Shown: piece after piece, positions 49,129 to 55,081 of the stretch
How the letters are laid out: the number at the start of each line of letters is the position of its first letter
Position numbering within the stretch: position 1 is the first letter of the stretch
Assembly: GCA_016841525.1 (NCBI GenBank)
Contig: JAENYZ010000001.1
Coordinates: 806,001 to 870,000 of the forward strand
Reading direction: 5' to 3'
DNA from: Anaerolineaceae bacterium
Lineage (GTDB): Bacteria > Chloroflexota > Anaerolineae > Anaerolineales > Anaerolineaceae
DNA: 64,000 nt
The notes under the pieces: generated by a model
Told to the model about the DNA's origin: nothing
The model's input: the letters and a program-made list of their open reading frames with translations, nothing else
The model's database searches: none
Position numbers and translations under genes: made by a program

Positions 49129-50586
49129 TTAATCAACAGGAATCATGCTCTTATAATCCGGGTTATCACTTGCCAAAACCCGTATATCATCCTTAACCAA
49201 CCACCCCTTATAAGGAACAATGCCTCGCTCAGGTCGCCATCCAGAAAGCACAAATGGCACAACGCCGTCAGCAACCATCCATTCACCGTTGAATTTTCTT
49301 GCAATGTGAATATGGGTTCCAGTTGAGCGTCCGCCTTCGCATGATGGATAACCCAGAAAGTCACCAGCTCTCACAACCGTTCCTACCGGCACACGATCTC
49401 GTTCAGCGACGTGTAAATAAAACACAACCCATCCGGTGTGTTCATCGCCGTCACCATCCAGGTCCAGCACCAACATGCCTTCACCATCCCGAACCACCAC
49501 TCCATCAGCAACAGCGGTTGTCGGTACGGAAGTTTCATAGCAGCCTGTAATTGTTGAAGGCGGTGCAAAATCTAATGCTGACCAAGGCGCCATGCTTCCC
49601 CATCCAGTGTGCGGCCCGCCAGTATAAGCCCAAACCTCATCCTTTTCGTAGGGTAAAATCATTTCAGGCTGTACCAGGGAGCCAGGGATATGCGGCTGAA
49701 TCGTCCATGGATCGCCAAACAACTTCTGGTAAGTTTTGACAAACCCATCCGGGCCAATCGCTTGATGAAAACCCTGCACACTTAATGTTTTTGAAAAGAA
49801 ATACTGCAGTGATACCGTTGCCGCATTTTGCCAGGGGTCAGGGCGGATTAGTGACCCATCCTCAAGTTCGAATTCAATTAAAGATCCTTCACGCCAACGG
49901 TAAAAGGCGTCGTTTAACAAGTTTGAAGCGTAAGATAGCTGTAAATAGACCCCGGTCCAATAATCAGATTCAAGCCCTAGGATATTTCTTTCACTGCCGC
50001 TTAATGCGGTATCCGTAAACGCCCCACCCAAATAATCCAACAAAGCCAGTAGAATTTTCGGACTGATGGAATAATTAATGCCAACATAATCCACAATCTC
50101 GCCTGCATTGCGAGTGCCATCAAAAGCCCAGGCTGAATATCGAGAGTACCAGCCCTGGTGCTGGACAATAAATGCCTGTGTGTTAAAGCTTGAAACATCC
50201 GGCCCATTAACAAAAGCTGCATCCGGCAATATCTGGTAGGGTGTCCCCCATAAAGGACGATGATAAATCGGGATTTTCATCGGCATGCCAGGAGGCATGG
50301 TGGTTGCGTCCTGTGGGATAAAATCGTTTGCTCCTCTGATTTCTTCAACCGTTGTATTAAAGCGAACCGCCAAAGCCGCAAGCGTATCCCCTGTTTGGGC
50401 AGTGTAATCTACCAATTCTCCAGGGCCATAAGCTGGCCGCGTTGGGAATGGGGTAATCTCCACCACCTCAGCAGGTTCATCTTCGATTGAAGCTGGGGGA
50501 AGAATCATTGTAGGCTGCATTGTCGGTGAACATGCACCAAGGATTATTGCAATCAATATAAGAGGGAAAACAAATTTTTTAATCAT
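49129..50586 (-). CDS. LysM / pseudo-transglycosylase / M23 lipoprotein, paralog C
   Basis: A 485-residue lipoprotein (lipobox LGAC, Cys 19). A LysM motif (YTAQTGDTLAALAVRFN) at about 60-110 is followed by a helical central domain (about 130-305) and an M23-type domain (about 310-470). The metal ligands are His in TGGPHTGW, Asp in ALDFAPP and H-x-H in THIHIARKF; the H-D spacing is longer than the usual H-x3-D. The central domain has ILLALLDYLGGAF where lytic transglycosylases have the catalytic Glu-Ser. DLDGDGDEH forms a Ca2+-loop-like insert. Most divergent of three tandem paralogs. Confidence 0.85.
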   Translation of the reverse strand: MIKKFVFPLILIAIILGACSPTMQPTMILPPASIEDEPAEVVEITPFPTRPAYGPGELVDYTAQTGDTLAALAVRFNTTVEEIRGANDFIPQDATTMPPGMPMKIPIYHRPLWGTPYQILPDAAFVNGPDVSSFNTQAFIVQHQGWYSRYSAWAFDGTRNAGEIVDYVGINYSISPKILLALLDYLGGAFTDTALSGSERNILGLESDYWTGVYLQLSYASNLLNDAFYRWREGSLIEFELEDGSLIRPDPWQNAATVSLQYFFSKTLSVQGFHQAIGPDGFVKTYQKLFGDPWTIQPHIPGSLVQPEMILPYEKDEVWAYTGGPHTGWGSMAPWSALDFAPPSTITGCYETSVPTTAVADGVVVRDGEGMLVLDLDGDGDEHTGWVVFYLHVAERDRVPVGTVVRAGDFLGYPSCEGGRSTGTHIHIARKFNGEWMVADGVVPFVLSGWRPERGIVPYKGWLVKDDIRVLASDNPDYKSMIPVD

Positions 50587-50727
50587 AAATAAGCAAATTT
50601 TCGAAAATCAGGATATAAATTCAAAAAAGCCCATTTTCGAAAACAGGACACTCAAGCATACTTCGTAGAAGAAAAAAAGTCCAGCTAACTACCTCTAAAA
50701 AATCCAGATATTTACTATACGAAAAAA

Positions 50728-52344
50728 TTATTCATCACGTGTGATATGGGTTTCATGGGTGCTGGCTGTATTTGCATAAATGATCTTGCTGTCTTTGATC
50801 AACCAGCCTTGATAAGCCGCTGTACCTGCGCGTGCAACATACCCGTTCAATGTAAATGGCAGCGGACCGTCAGCAGGCACCCATTCACCGTTGTAACGAC
50901 GTGCCATATGCACATGTGTCCCCGTAGATCGGCCGCCCTCACAGGATGGGTGCCCAATTCGATCGCCCACTTCAACCCAGGTACCCAGGGGGATTCTATC
51001 TTCAGTTTCTATATGTAAATAAAGCAGTGTCCATCCCGTTTGTTCGTAACCGTCCCCATCCATATCAATAACGACCACGCCAAAGCCAGACCTTACAACC
51101 AAGCCTGGAATTGAAGCAACCACCCATTCATCAGATTCCTGACAGCCATTAAGAGCACTCGGGGGAGCAAAATCCAAAGCTGCCCAAGCATCTGCAGAGC
51201 TCCAAGCAGCATGAGGACCGCCTGTGAAAGCCCATTTTTTACCAATCTCAAAGGGTAATATCATTTCAGGTTGTTCCATGTCCGGCGGGATTAAAGGTTC
51301 AACTGACTGTGCCCTGATCCATGGATTGCCAAACATTCTTTCGTGTAAGGCAAAGAAATTCCCCTCCGCATATAAAAATCTCTGCCAATCTTCAAAACCA
51401 TAAAGTTGCGTGAATGCATTCATCAAACCAACCGTACCTGCATTGAGCTGCGGCGCTAATCTTAAAGTCTGGCCATCTTGAAAATTGATCACCAATTGCC
51501 GTCCCTCACGCCAGCCATAATAACCATCCATAACCGTACTGGCAAACCAGGCAGCTTGCAGATATAAACCTTCTTTCTTATAATCTGCATTGCCCATCGG
51601 GTAAATTGTCGAAAAGTCGTCTTGAGGTTGTCCGTAGACCCATCCAGATTGAAACTCTAAAAAAGCCAATAATAACCTCGGATTTACTGAGTATTCAAGT
51701 GAAATTCGATCAATAATTTCCGCACCAGTTGTCCAACCTGTTGTCATTAAATACTCTCGATAAGTTGAAAGATATCCACCTGCGTTCATTACAAAAGCAG
51801 TCGTTTCAAAGTCAATGGTAGATGGTGAGAATGTGACCTCACTGTCCATTAATAATTTCATTTTTGAGCTGATTGTTTCCAAACGATTAGGAATGATTAA
51901 AAGCTGATCTGGCGGAAGCAAACCTTCAGGATCGATACGCTCTGGCGATGTAATTGAAGCCATATCGACGCCAAAACGAAGGCTCACCACGGGTAAACTG
52001 TCACCGGCAATGGTGTAGTACAGGATGTGGGTATCGTCGCCTGCAGGAACAATCTGACCTTCAGTTGGCAGAGGTAATGGCGTCCTGGTTGGGAGCATAT
52101 CCACTGATGCAGAAAGCGAACTCTCATATTCCTTTCCAGACACGGGTGCCTTAAGTGTAGCAGTGCTTGCCTGGCTAAAACTGACCCCCTGACTTGAAGC
52201 TGGTGCTAAAACTGGATAAACAAAATTCCCACAAATTAAAACAGACAAAATTATAGCCAAGCTTATGAGCAGGCTCATTCGTTTTAAGCGTCTCTGAAAA
52301 TATCGCTTCCTAGCGCTGGATGGCGTTAAAGGGCGATCGCCCAT
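50728..52344 (-). CDS. LysM-like / pseudo-transglycosylase / M23 membrane protein, paralog B
   Basis: A 538-residue protein anchored by an N-terminal helix (about 24-46, MSLLISLAIILSVLICGNF) with no good lipobox. A degenerate LysM (YTIAGDSLPVVSLRFGV) is followed by the transglycosylase-like domain with YSVNPRLLLAFLEFQSGWV, where Gln replaces the catalytic Glu, then the M23 domain (TGGPHAAW, ALDFAPP, GTHVHMARRY). IDMDGDGYEQ is the Ca2+-loop-like insert. The start is ATG 52344 with GGAGG six bases upstream, inside the 3' end of paralog A. Confidence 0.85.
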   Translation of the reverse strand: MGDRPLTPSSARKRYFQRRLKRMSLLISLAIILSVLICGNFVYPVLAPASSQGVSFSQASTATLKAPVSGKEYESSLSASVDMLPTRTPLPLPTEGQIVPAGDDTHILYYTIAGDSLPVVSLRFGVDMASITSPERIDPEGLLPPDQLLIIPNRLETISSKMKLLMDSEVTFSPSTIDFETTAFVMNAGGYLSTYREYLMTTGWTTGAEIIDRISLEYSVNPRLLLAFLEFQSGWVYGQPQDDFSTIYPMGNADYKKEGLYLQAAWFASTVMDGYYGWREGRQLVINFQDGQTLRLAPQLNAGTVGLMNAFTQLYGFEDWQRFLYAEGNFFALHERMFGNPWIRAQSVEPLIPPDMEQPEMILPFEIGKKWAFTGGPHAAWSSADAWAALDFAPPSALNGCQESDEWVVASIPGLVVRSGFGVVVIDMDGDGYEQTGWTLLYLHIETEDRIPLGTWVEVGDRIGHPSCEGGRSTGTHVHMARRYNGEWVPADGPLPFTLNGYVARAGTAAYQGWLIKDSKIIYANTASTHETHITRDE

Positions 52345-53842
52345 TCCATGCCTCCAATGTCTCATCACCTTTGATCAAATAACCATCATATTCCACACCA
52401 TAACCTGCAGTGACCCAGCCATCCAATACCAGGGGAAAGTCGGAATCTGCTGCAATCCACTCTCCATTATACCGCCGAGCAAGATGCAGATGGGTGCCTG
52501 TTGAGAAGCCACCTTCACAGGAGGGATGCCCAATACGATCTCCAGCATCCAGGTATTCTTTAACTTCCACCCGCTCAGAGCTTGCGATATGCATGTAAAG
52601 CATTGACCAGCCAGTCTGCCAGACACCATCGCCATCCAGGTCCTGAATGACTGCGCCGTGATCAGAATAGACAATCTTCCCTGATGCTGAGGCGACCACC
52701 CAGGCTTCACTTGGGAAACAACCCAAAGCCTCTCCTGGTGGGGCAAAGTCAATGGCTGCCCATGCAGACCCCGTATCCCAACCACCGTGGGGTCCCCCTG
52801 TGAAAGACCAAACATCTCCTTTTTCAAAAGGAAGCTTCAAGTCTGGTTGAGCTAATCCGTCGGGGATCATGGGTTCATAAGCAAAAATAAAGGGGTAGCC
52901 AAAGAGGCTCAGATATGCGGTAAAAATCCCTTCTTCGGAGACCGCGTCCTCCCAATTATCCTGGGTTTTTAAGTACCGCAGTACGTTTAAAACACCTGCT
53001 GTCCCCGGGTTGATGGTCGGGTCGACTTGCATAACACTGCCATCTGATAGAATCCAGGCAGTGATTGCATTGAGTTTCCAAAGGTAATAACCCTCATTCA
53101 ATAAATTCGCAGCCCAGGCTAGCTGATTATATAATCCCTCTCGCCAGGCTTCATAATAACGCAAGGGGTAAATCCGGGTTTCTTCCGGCGGATTTGACTT
53201 TGTCACCCAATTGCTTTGATATTCCAGTAACGCAAGCAAAAGCCGGGGATTAACAGAATATTCCAGGGCAACCCGCTCAACAATTTCAGCACCCATCGTT
53301 GGCGAGCCGTCAACAGGTTCAGAATAGGCAGCTAAAAACCCATTTCGTTCATCTACAAATGCTTGAACATTAAAGTAGGCGTTGGATGGACTGTTTACCA
53401 GCTCTGAATCCGGAATGATCTTAAACGAAGGCGCAACTGCTTCAAAGGATGGCGGCGGAATTAATAAAACTTGCCCGACTTCAATCAAGTTTGGATTGAT
53501 GATGTTGTTCAGCGAAACTATTTGATCCCAGGAGACCTGGTAACGCTGAGCGATAAGCTTGAGGGTATCACCTGGTTGAACTGAGTAAGAAATTGTTTCC
53601 ACCCGCGGCGTTGGAAGCACTATCGTGGGATTGGGTGTGGGTGTCGGTAATGGGTTTTCTGTTATCTGAGCTTCACCAAAATAAAGCGTGCTGGTTGGCG
53701 CAGCTTCAATTGCCCCACCGCCCACACCACCAGTCCCAGGTGCTTTCCAGGGTTCTGCTCCAGGCCCAGGTTTATAACACCCGGTCAAAACAAATGCCAA
53801 TAATAAGATAAAACCAGTAAGTCTTTTCTCTTTTAAAATCAT
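52310..53842 (-). CDS. LysM / pseudo-transglycosylase / M23 lipoprotein, paralog A
   Basis: A 510-residue lipoprotein (lipobox VLTGC, Cys 22) with a Pro/Thr linker, a canonical LysM (YSVQPGDTLKLIAQRYQVSW), a central domain with YSVNPRLLLALLEYQSNWV, and an M23 domain (TGGPHGGWD, AIDFAPPGE, GTHLHLARRY). QDLDGDGVWQ forms the same Ca2+-loop-like insert. The stop overlaps the start of paralog B by 35 bases, and the start overlaps the deacetylase stop by four (ATGA). A cell-wall endopeptidase role is likely if the altered M23 site is active. Confidence 0.87.
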   Translation of the reverse strand: MILKEKRLTGFILLLAFVLTGCYKPGPGAEPWKAPGTGGVGGGAIEAAPTSTLYFGEAQITENPLPTPTPNPTIVLPTPRVETISYSVQPGDTLKLIAQRYQVSWDQIVSLNNIINPNLIEVGQVLLIPPPSFEAVAPSFKIIPDSELVNSPSNAYFNVQAFVDERNGFLAAYSEPVDGSPTMGAEIVERVALEYSVNPRLLLALLEYQSNWVTKSNPPEETRIYPLRYYEAWREGLYNQLAWAANLLNEGYYLWKLNAITAWILSDGSVMQVDPTINPGTAGVLNVLRYLKTQDNWEDAVSEEGIFTAYLSLFGYPFIFAYEPMIPDGLAQPDLKLPFEKGDVWSFTGGPHGGWDTGSAWAAIDFAPPGEALGCFPSEAWVVASASGKIVYSDHGAVIQDLDGDGVWQTGWSMLYMHIASSERVEVKEYLDAGDRIGHPSCEGGFSTGTHLHLARRYNGEWIAADSDFPLVLDGWVTAGYGVEYDGYLIKGDETLEAWNGRSPFNAIQR

Positions 53843-54996
53843 TCGTTTCCTTCAGGCTGGCAATAAGTCGAGAGATAGTCTAATTCTTCCAGCTTAATAC
53901 TTTCGGCATAATCAATGACATCCTGGCTGACTGACAGCGCATGCATGAGGGCAACATCCGCATCTGGTGACCAGTACCGCGGCAGCACCATCAGCGGAGC
54001 ATTCATTATGATCTGTTCTTCCCTGAGAGGAATCCAGTTATACATGATCGGCCCATTTGAGTACACCGAAAATCCCAGTTTGAACCCAGCTTCCTCAGCC
54101 AATGCAATTGATTCCTCAGTAAAATTACCACCAGGCCAAATGATTGCTTTGGGTGTTGTGCCGAAATGTTCTTGAATGACCTCAATCGGCCTGTAAATCT
54201 CCTCTTCGATCTCTTCGAGAGGCATATAGTCCTGGATGTAAATATGATCATGACCATGTGATTGAACATCCAGCCGGCCAGATTCCGCCAGGCTCTCCAT
54301 GCGTGCCCAAAGATCATCACCGGTTAAATCCGTGGTAGGCCAGGCAAGCGTTAACGTCCAATCGAATTCTTCCAGATAAGGCATGAACAATTCTGTCACA
54401 CCAGCCGAACGATCATCCTTAATCAGTATCATTGATCGTTGGGGAATTTTTTCGTTCTCATAAAGAAATCCGATTAATTGCTCTGTGGTAATTGTTGAAA
54501 AGCCCAATTCCTTTGCCTTTGCCATAAAATACTCAAATCGCTCCATGGATATTGTTGTATTATCTTTAATCGTGCGCCCCGGTTTTGCAACCGAATGGAA
54601 CATAAAGGGTACAACTATCGTGCCAGGTTCGCTTTTGCCTTCACCCCATCGATTCTCAAGATAACTGCATACATCCTCAATATAAGTAACCGGCGTTATA
54701 CCAGTCCTTAAATGGGGAGAGGAAAACACTTCAAGCGGTTCCGGTGTCGGAGAAGCAGTCGGCGTAAAGGTCGAGGTTGGTGGAATGGATGTAGGTGTGT
54801 GGGTCGATGTCGGCAGCGCAATCTGGGTTGCAGATCTTGTCGGTGTTAAAGCTGACATTTCTTCAGAAGTCAGGGATTCTGAAATTACAGGATTATTCCC
54901 ATTGGAAGGATTTGAAGACTTCTCAGGCTGGGAGTTGACACAAGCCGATAAGCCTAATAATAAAACAATAATAACAATAATATTCCTGATTCGCAT
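53839..54996 (-). CDS. Polysaccharide deacetylase (NodB-like) lipoprotein
   Basis: A 385-residue lipoprotein (lipobox GLSAC) with a long Ser/Thr/Pro linker to about residue 85. The carbohydrate esterase 4 barrel follows. Motif 1 is LIKDDRSAG in place of the usual TFDDG, keeping the Asp pair. Motif 2 is QSHGHDH, supplying the metal His residues. Motif 3 is IIWPGGNF. It probably N-deacetylates peptidoglycan or a surface glycan. The start is ATG 54996 with GAGGAG upstream. It is the first gene of the M23 operon, so modification and cleavage of wall polymer are linked. Confidence 0.87.
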   Translation of the reverse strand: MRIRNIIVIIVLLLGLSACVNSQPEKSSNPSNGNNPVISESLTSEEMSALTPTRSATQIALPTSTHTPTSIPPTSTFTPTASPTPEPLEVFSSPHLRTGITPVTYIEDVCSYLENRWGEGKSEPGTIVVPFMFHSVAKPGRTIKDNTTISMERFEYFMAKAKELGFSTITTEQLIGFLYENEKIPQRSMILIKDDRSAGVTELFMPYLEEFDWTLTLAWPTTDLTGDDLWARMESLAESGRLDVQSHGHDHIYIQDYMPLEEIEEEIYRPIEVIQEHFGTTPKAIIWPGGNFTEESIALAEEAGFKLGFSVYSNGPIMYNWIPLREEQIIMNAPLMVLPRYWSPDADVALMHALSVSQDVIDYAESIKLEELDYLSTYCQPEGNE

Positions 54997-55029
54997 CAAA
55001 CTCCTCACCGGGGATGGATCAATGCCTTG

Positions 55030-55037
55030 ATTATACC
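55030..55037 (-). promoter_or_regulatory. GG-extended -10 element of the deacetylase/M23 operon
   Basis: Minus-strand GGTATAAT, 33 bases before ATG 54996. Confidence 0.5.
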
Positions 55038-55081
55038 GAAACATAAAATTTGATAACAGCATCAAACCACTTAATTATTAA

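Follow-up and report, generated by a model that had tools for sequence, protein, structure and literature searches.

What does a lysozyme-like domain do in front of an endopeptidase when the residue expected to cut the sugar is not there? Three tandem genes raise this question in a 64,000-nucleotide stretch of DNA from an Anaerolineaceae bacterium (hereafter the window). On its minus strand, between positions 49129 and 53842, an open reading frame check recovered genes A, B and C (Table 1), whose products are built of LysM, a central domain of about 190 aa and an M23 peptidase domain. The first-pass annotation had placed three tandem genes with a central domain before M23 here and quoted three motifs from that domain, all of which we find as given.

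LysM and M23 had been assigned to all three proteins. This stands for M23, which Pfam detects above the cut-off in A and slightly under it in B and C, and for LysM in A and C. B has no Pfam LysM match, although it aligns over the LysM columns, and the Asp at position 92 is present in 75 of 76 B-clade proteins. Read from GTG, the B frame overlaps the 3' end of A by 59 bp. A simple pattern located a lipobox-like site in 54 of the 74 A-clade proteins; lipobox counts, like the HxH counts below, come from pattern matching or inspection by eye, and from neither Pfam nor a signal predictor.

Table 1. Features of the three-gene locus (positions in the window).
Feature	Position	Strand	Remarks
Protein A	52310..53842	-	510 aa; lipobox signal, LysM, lysozyme-like pro-domain, M23A
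A signal peptide with lipobox (LTGC, Cys22)	53777..53842	-	Read by eye
A LysM, residues 86-129	53456..53587	-	Pfam PF01476, E 3.5e-16
A central lysozyme-like domain, residues ~138-329	52856..53431	-	AF2, fold matches, propeptide homology via relatives
A Gln209 codon, catalytic Glu position of lytic transglycosylases (LTs)	53216..53218	-	Alignment, profile-profile register
A Glu207 codon, near-invariant acid	53222..53224	-	E198, D13, Q5, X1 (n = 217)
A M23A endopeptidase domain (predicted), from ~residue 330	52313..52855	-	H(x)12D, second His, HxH intact
Protein B	50728..52368	-	546 aa counted from GTG; true start uncertain
B central lysozyme-like pro-domain	51280..51867	-	Aligned with A
B M23A domain	50731..51279	-	Pfam M23 and alignment
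Protein C	49129..50586	-	485 aa; lipobox, LysM, pro-domain, M23A
C LysM, residues 61-106	50269..50406	-	Pfam PF01476, E 1.7e-6
C central lysozyme-like pro-domain	49678..50244	-	Aligned with A; Leu at LT Glu position, Asp at invariant acid
C M23A domain	49132..49677	-	Pfam M23 and alignment

LasA-type peptidases kept as a trio

The M23 domain of A, B and C belongs to the LasA/beta-lytic subfamily M23A. In a phmmer search with A, BLP (8af1, 2.9e-6), pseudoalterin and LasA precede the other listed M23 entries (DipM, 0.012), and a fold search with the two-domain model returned LasA (Z 18.8), pseudoalterin (18.6) and BLP (18.1), the next match scoring 13.3. We aligned 217 relatives, namely the open reading frames above 400 bits from 80 loci together with those of the window and L004, leaving out weaker or truncated frames and the duplicates L001-L003; the 80 loci were kept from at least 121 relatives confirmed in a genome scan. 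The first motif reads H(x)12D in 206 of the 217, A, B and C among them, and has longer inserts in 11. In the sections of a review that treat these motifs, LasA has this spacing and the M23B enzyme gp13 has H(x)7D (PMC9662197). All five metal-site residues, including the second His and HxH, are intact in 212 of the 214 rows without a gap there, and a DxDxDG loop lies within 205 of 217 peptidases. With their metal-site residues intact, A, B and C are predicted to be endopeptidases.

The A-B-C trio recurs in many Anaerolineae, and the three clades follow in the order A-B-C in 57 of the 58 loci with three aligned genes (window counted), so that the arrangement is not due to chance. Members of the family are LysM-bearing Chloroflexota proteins, for the most part lipoproteins, kept as this trio. 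Across the 66 arrays in which our rule assigned a nearest upstream gene there is no constant operon partner, since the largest group of related upstream genes, represented by a polysaccharide deacetylase homolog, accounts for only 15. Further afield, an M23-type domain follows the central domain in 20/20 distant stretches hand-picked from a wider search; HxH was recognized in this following domain by motif in 16 and by eye in three, and is degenerate in one.

The central domain is related to the LasA-type propeptide

The first-pass annotation knew of no described family with this build. This was contradicted: by sequence comparison, the central domain has a homolog in LasA-type M23A precursors, namely their propeptide. 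As queries we used two Vibrionaceae M23A precursors, L199 and L200, with the peptidase part removed; the mature part of L200 matches LasA at 3.1e-76, starting at residue 193. In blastp against 4,625 open reading frames, 249 of which belong to the trio-domain family, the L200 propeptide found a B protein of a trio (L075) with an E value of 9.3e-8 over 163 alignment columns (L200 residues 12-151), and the L199 propeptide found L133 at 6.8e-6. The best of 1,000 shuffled control queries reached 2.7e-4, and two fell below 1e-3. A profile of both propeptides gave nine matches at E<=0.1, all within the trio-domain family, as were 62 of the 70 at E<=10.

Pairwise, L199 and L200 scored Z 7.3 to 12.8 over shuffles against L125, L129 and L133 in all six combinations. 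Among the window domains, only B, paired with L200 at Z 4.3, is among the top 14 of 64 pairs, in a comparison where one control pair reached Z 5.1; A and C are absent from the best pairs, so their propeptide homology runs through relatives. Searches in the forward direction, from domain to propeptide, were weaker than the reverse. With the plain A2 profile, which includes the peptidase start, the best of 10,000 shuffles outscores both Vibrionaceae propeptides. One strictly trimmed profile ranks them fourth and fifth, and another ranks one of them first and the other below the top five; after trimming, the first few M23 residues were still present in L121, and L130 was included in truncated form. 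The Vibrionaceae propeptides are also shorter, and a match over most of the domain is carried by few pairs.

The boundary falls in the corresponding place. Residues 2-174 of mature LasA map to model residues 193-366, so that the end of the central domain coincides with the cut expected, from homology, for the LasA propeptide. The central domain is best interpreted as an M23A pro-domain that LysM-bearing Chloroflexota proteins have kept. In the available passages of published work, LasA is exported while its propeptide is still intact and becomes active upon propeptide degradation (PMC5493658), the BLP propeptide is essential for expression, and mutations in the LasA propeptide harm the mature enzyme (PMC8715609).

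A predicted lysozyme-like fold

We then considered the fold of the domain. Predictions drew on sets thinned at ~66% identity, which comprised 138 of the 214 usable central domains for the lone domain and 116 of 208 rows for the two-domain protein. AF2 models the central domain of A with a pLDDT of 95.5, and the two-domain protein with a pLDDT of 96.5 and a pTM of 0.94. Residues 181-208 rise from a pLDDT of 76-88 in the lone domain to 93-97 when the peptidase is present. In the model, the central domain and the peptidase are predicted to form a rigid unit with fixed packing.

That the fold would be lysozyme-like, for which a structure prediction and a fold search had been proposed as a check, was borne out in kind, with weak scores. 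The best Foldseek matches are lysozyme-superfamily enzymes (best E 0.12, TM about 0.4). G-type lysozymes fill the first five rows; by description, 45 of the 50 listed are lysozymes, LTs, glucosaminidases, a muramidase effector or other wall lysins, and five are unrelated or unassigned proteins. VIA, which only re-aligns candidates supplied by Foldseek, lists 48 of 50 as lysozyme, LT, glucosaminidase or lysin; the two exceptions are a phage tail-tip protein and an archaeal chitinase. The top VIA match is LytB (rmsd 4.2 over 127 residues), with a Z of 8.4 that lies in the tool's middling range. A search of a viral fold library (best E 0.1) listed 50 rows, of which 24 bear the name of an LT, lysin or glucosaminidase and the rest are unnamed or other.

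Sequence profiles reach less far. Pfam gave no convincing match on the central domain of 138 members, any of the 25 listed families being common to at most three of them; the scan included one weak SLT_2 match (E 0.092) and one weak Glucosaminidase match (PF01832, E 0.036), the latter in none of A, B and C. The central-domain profile had no match up to E 10 among the PDB chains searched. Aligned by hhalign to 30 Chloroflexota SLT domains, it scored a pairwise E of 8.4e-4 with a probability of only 24%, and to 13 GH73 domains an E of 0.01 with a probability of 4%, in the same register. Both alignments place Gln209 of A on the catalytic Glu.

Most members have no Glu at the catalytic position

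This register backs the earlier reading that Gln in A and B, and Leu in C, stand at the LT catalytic Glu. The catalytic Glu with which the active-site helix of GH23 enzymes ends is absent from A, B and C, as is the combination of a PF01832 match and a catalytic Glu that marks GH73. The expectation that homologs would always have the Glu replaced holds for 191 of 217 relatives (Gln in 133) and for 20/20 distant ones, and fails for 26 of 76 B-clade proteins, the only clade with Glu there; in 19 of these 26, Ser follows as in LTs. Since none of the 20 distant relatives carries Glu at this position, that of the B clade looks derived. The claim that the catalytic Glu was "lost" therefore did not hold up: nothing shows that the central domain ever had an LT Glu to lose. 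The domain is apparently a non-cutting pseudo-lysozyme.

The old cleft of such a domain might still bind glycan strands, and the domain would then position M23 on peptide stems without cutting sugar. The predicted fold, the chemically E-to-Q nature of the commonest residue at 209, the retention of Trp212 in 75/76 A-clade and 71/76 B-clade proteins and the LysM in the same chain, which also suggests glycan contact, would suit this role. However, Gln is not maintained at 209, which changes as an ordinary site would (45 times on the tree; rank 81 among 191 columns), the C clade lacks Trp212 (59 of its 65 proteins have Ala and 6 have Gly), several top-conserved residues (S196, P199, N278, D145) look like helix caps or core, and the LasA-type relatives of the domain are removable propeptides. 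We consider glycan positioning unlikely.

The likeness to lysozyme could instead reflect a common helical arrangement, the domain being simply an M23A-specific pro-domain of unrelated fold. The Foldseek, VIA and hhalign scores are modest enough for this, and five listed Foldseek rows point elsewhere. Against it stand the g-type lysozymes at the head of the Foldseek list, the preponderance of wall-lysing enzymes below them and in VIA (albeit on Foldseek's own candidates), the 24 viral-library rows, and a sequence motif in register with LTs; an unrelated fold is improbable.

Least plausible, and in our estimate very improbable, is an active glycosidase working through another acid, making the proteins bifunctional like phage phi29 gp13, which combines glycosidase and peptidase: while Glu or Asp occupies 207, two residues before the LT position, in 211/217 rows (Glu 198, Asp 13; Gln 5 and one X, in L084) and in 20/20 distant relatives, and part of the B clade has Glu209, often before Ser, a shift of the active site to Glu207 was rejected as the main reading in view of the Gln at this position in the LasA-type propeptide L200 (L199 is unaligned there) and of the helix that 207 is predicted to share with 209, which should turn 207 away from the LT cleft, and Asp or Gln replaces Glu207 in 18 rows and Pfam matches to SLT or GH73 number one weak case each among 138 members.

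A probable folding and latency module

Of the two roles first guessed for the domain, an autoinhibitory module fits better than glycan positioning, given the homology to the latency propeptide of LasA. We propose that A, B and C are probably surface-anchored M23A endopeptidases with a silent lysozyme-like pro-domain for folding and latency in cis. Packed fixedly on the peptidase and catalytically silent, the pro-domain would most likely act as a folding template and inhibitory module. LysM, plus a lipid anchor in most members, would tie the precursor to the wall of its own cell, and removal or displacement of the pro-domain may then free the endopeptidase activity to remodel that wall. Folding help and latency are suggested by analogy with the published work on LasA and BLP.

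Cleavage as in LasA is less easily accommodated. LysM precedes the pro-domain and a cut would release the peptidase from its wall anchor, so the domain may be retained and serve another purpose. M23A N-termini are also not all of one kind: some Chloroflexota M23A proteins have another, small domain in this place or lack one altogether, and two Burkholderiales and one Herpetosiphon plasmid example were unmatched over the central domain. The lysozyme-like pro-domain is thus not required for M23A folding in general. (The plasmid search was made with the peptidase of L129, more LasA-like than that of A, after tblastn of the A M23 domain against plasmids gave no match.)

More tentatively, and with some doubt, the propeptide of the LasA branch might be a demoted peptidoglycan glycosidase. 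An ancestral glycosidase-endopeptidase would have lost its sugar-cutting site and the dead domain become an intramolecular chaperone and lock, kept wall-bound in Chloroflexota and made disposable in the LasA branch. We found no mention of a LasA-type propeptide as lysozyme-like in the available parts of the LasA and BLP literature, and no solved M23A propeptide structure; the PDB M23A entries 8af1, 6ik4 and 3it5/3it7 match on the peptidase domain, with chains of 173-182 residues. Folding and latency are named as an obstacle to M23A antimicrobials in the sections available of PMC8715609. A lysozyme-like LasA-type propeptide, retained by many Chloroflexota in wall-anchored enzymes, would offer a concrete model of both, and an unusual case of one wall-hydrolase fold used to control another.

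Nearest known systems

The precursors of LasA, pseudoalterin and BLP share with the window family an M23A peptidase with H(x)12D and HxH and an N-terminal domain of the LasA propeptide type. In contrast to them, the window family has LysM and mostly a lipobox before the pro-domain, comes as three tandem paralogs and carries the DxDxDG loop. LasA itself, as described in parts of PMC5493658, is secreted and sheds its propeptide, unlike the LysM-bearing build seen here. GH23 LTs (Slt70, MltC, MltF) and g-type lysozymes resemble the central domain, on consistent but weak matches, in predicted fold class and in the register of the active-site helix, but not in the absence of the catalytic Glu or the near-absence of Pfam SLT matches. 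GH73 enzymes (LytB, AtlE, FlgJ) include the best VIA match and likewise differ by their conserved catalytic Glu and Pfam Glucosaminidase domain.

A phage origin was considered and rejected. The 13 pattern matches in viral_contigs encode no relative of the central domain, tblastn of the A central domain against 'phages' gave no match, and the L200 precursor likewise matched nothing in viral_contigs. The phi29 tail protein gp13 reportedly carries a lysozyme-like domain, active as a glycosidase, before M23 in one chain. Foldseek aligns gp13 (3csq) over 366 columns spanning both domains, at an rmsd of 17, whereas VIA aligns the M23 part alone, and the gp13 peptidase is classed as M23B in the relevant section of PMC9662197.

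A conserved gene trio encodes probable M23A endopeptidases

Proteins A, B and C of the window each carry a central domain of about 190 residues (about 138-329 in A) between LysM and M23. Pfam detects LysM in A and C, the LysM-like stretch of B being visible solely through the alignment, and M23 above cut-off in A and slightly below it in B and C. A overlaps the polysaccharide-deacetylase-like gene by 4 bases, while the listed start of B overlaps A by 59 bases, which makes B's true start uncertain. One further paralog lies elsewhere in this Chloroflexota genome, which is of Anaerolineaceae type, and the nearest named match of protein A, among the matches listed, comes from a 'Brevefilum sp.' MAG (93% identity).

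Coordinates of the trio and the adjacent gene in the window
Feature	Position	Strand	Remarks
A	52310-53842	minus	first in order of transcription
B	50728-52368	minus	second in order of transcription; listed start GTG
C	49129-50586	minus	third in order of transcription
Polysaccharide-deacetylase-like gene	53839-55065		precedes A; Pfam PF01522

A scan of named genomes confirmed at least 121 relatives, and 80 loci were kept. Among the matches listed, these are Chloroflexota by title bar one 3.5-kb contig labelled Patescibacteria, which carries two trio genes and is probably misbinned. We aligned 217 proteins from these loci, the window and the fourth paralog, and a FastTree tree placed them in clades A (76), B (76) and C (65). 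Gene order is A-B-C in 57 of the 58 loci with three aligned genes; at the remaining locus, a second B-clade gene takes the third place. Four-gene arrays at two loci (L012 and L026) have an additional third gene with an odd motif (LELQCDC, LEYYSGC), and the three third-of-four genes found altogether each fall in the B clade. A polysaccharide-deacetylase homolog is present in 20/80 loci, and such homologs form the largest group among the nearest upstream genes of other arrays (15/66).

The central domain was counted at E<=0.001 in 88 of 400 evenly drawn Chloroflexota genomes. Among the rows listed, the window's order accounts for 35 of these genomes, its own among them, at 3 or 4 copies per genome. 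The rest of its class contributes 13 of 20 genomes (1 or 2 copies), and other classes contribute 40, in which the 1 to 4 copies are distant ones.

The peptidases belong to M23A, the LasA/beta-lytic subfamily, whose members are produced as propeptide-bearing precursors according to PMC8715609. The top sequence matches of A's M23 domain are beta-lytic protease (BLP), pseudoalterin and LasA, which a distant Chloroflexota member (L129) matches at 2e-35 to 8e-29. After structural re-alignment (VIA), a two-domain model (pLDDT 96.5, pTM 0.94) reaches Z 18-19 against LasA, pseudoalterin and BLP, with the next-best structure at 13.3. Together with these matches, the H(x)12D spacing of 206/217 proteins and the metal-site residues kept in 212/214 rows (rows with a gap there excluded) indicate that the endopeptidases are probably active. 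A DxDxDG stretch (DLDGDG) in the M23A domain (window 52313-52855) looks like a calcium-binding loop; it recurs in 205/217 relatives and was not seen in the part of L125 that was inspected. Three relatives, L125, L129 and L133, are long reading frames of 1262 to 2320 aa in which the pro-domain and a LasA-like M23A are followed by long tails.

The central domain is related by sequence to LasA-type propeptides

In the M23A precursors L199 (Salinivibrio) and L200 (Photobacterium), both encoded on Vibrionaceae plasmids, about 170 residues separate the signal peptide from the mature part; that of L200 matches LasA at 3.1e-76 from residue 193 onward. With the peptidase removed, we searched their propeptides against 4,625 ORFs, 249 of them from the central-domain family. 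For the L200 propeptide the search found L075, a B protein of a trio, at E 9.3e-8 (163 alignment columns), and for the L199 propeptide it found L133 at 6.8e-6; the best of 1,000 shuffled queries gave 2.7e-4. A joint profile returned the family in 9/9 hits at E<=0.1 and 62/70 at E<=10. In pairwise comparisons scored against shuffles, both propeptides matched L125, L129 and L133 at Z 7.3 to 12.8 in 6/6 pairs; seven M23A N-termini of other types, compared with 32 targets as a control, averaged Z 0.4 and peaked at 5.1. In 20/20 picked distant stretches an M23-type domain follows, one of these domains (in L138) having apparently lost its metal ligands; this protein (L138 1833-3413) may be a pseudo-hydrolase as a whole.

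Some results tell against this link: in the opposite direction, the two propeptides ranked below the best shuffles with the plain A2 profile and were borderline with trimmed profiles. As B is the one domain of the window to figure in the top 14 of 64 pairs (Z 4.3), A and C are tied to the propeptide through relatives. We read the central domain as an M23A pro-domain, homologous to the LasA-type propeptide. A different N-terminal stretch, with a W.FG ... FLA-like pattern, occurs in Chloroflexia M23A proteins (L237-L246, except the cut-short L242) and, by eye, in the Burkholderiales plasmid M23A proteins L201 and L203; it may be a second type of M23A pro-domain.

A lysozyme-like predicted fold and no support for a lost catalytic Glu

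AlphaFold2 modelled the central domain with pLDDT 95.5 and pTM 0.89 (138 aligned relatives as input). The top solved structures in Foldseek were g-type lysozymes, AtlE, LytB and lytic transglycosylases (LTs), the best E being 0.12 and TM about 0.4. By description, 45 of the best 50 rows are wall-cutting enzymes and five are other proteins. VIA, which re-aligns Foldseek's own candidates, gave middling scores (LytB Z 8.4, MltF Z 8.0), 48 of its best 50 being LTs, lysozymes, glucosaminidases, autolysins or the Ralstonia chitinase, a GH23 enzyme. With scores this weak, the resemblance might reflect no real kinship of fold; given how consistently wall-cutting enzymes fill the matches, we consider this improbable. 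The model agrees with the transglycosylase-like domain proposed by the first-pass annotation, and the central domain is quite likely lysozyme-like in fold.

That annotation had also placed Gln209 of A where LTs have their catalytic Glu. This register held, at low probabilities, in profile alignments against 30 Chloroflexota SLT domains (24%) and 13 GH73 domains (4%). The proposed loss of the Glu was not supported. Residue 209 among the 217 proteins is Q 133, R 28, E 26, H 9, K 5, S 4, plus others, so Glu is not always replaced, and all 26 cases lie in clade B (26/76). Glu209 occurs in 0/20 distant relatives, and its presence in some B proteins therefore looks like a gain rather than a remnant; the Glu/not-Glu state needs 6 changes on the tree. 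With 45 changes, rank 81 of 191 central-domain columns, the site is not under active-site constraint. The family mark, overlooked earlier, is an acid at 207: E 198, D 13, Q 5, X 1 in the alignment; of the 20 distant relatives, 18 have E and 2 have D. Residue 207 should face away from the LT cleft, because it shares a predicted helix (H62-73 of the model) with 209, and we read it as structural. L200 has Gln at 207, and L199 is unaligned there.

A putative pro-domain in probable wall-anchored precursors

M23A and its propeptides are already known; we think that two points are new, namely that the LasA-type propeptide is probably lysozyme-like and that Anaerolineae employ it within LysM-bearing trios. 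The open-licence PMC literature consulted (including PMC9662197, PMC8715609, PMC5493658 and PMC6962226) gives no such fold for an M23A propeptide and no description of the trio; other papers, subscription journals among them, could contain one.

LasA leaves the cell still joined to its propeptide, whose degradation by other proteases activates the enzyme (PMC5493658); PMC8715609 reports that the propeptide was essential for BLP expression and that propeptide mutations harm mature LasA. By homology, the central domain would aid folding of the M23A domain and keep that domain latent. The rigid unit that the two domains are predicted to form fits this role, junction confidence being higher when the peptidase is included in the model. 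A simple pattern finds lipobox-like signals in 54/74 A, 55/75 B and 61/65 C proteins (none by eye in the window's own B). Such signals, with LysM, would fix the precursors in the wall of the cell that makes them, and we therefore favour remodelling of that wall over attack on other cells. Altogether, we find it fairly probable that these are wall-anchored M23A endopeptidases whose central domain is a lysozyme-like pro-domain for folding and latency. The domain may be cut off, as in LasA, or merely shifted aside; the LysM preceding it argues for retention or late release.
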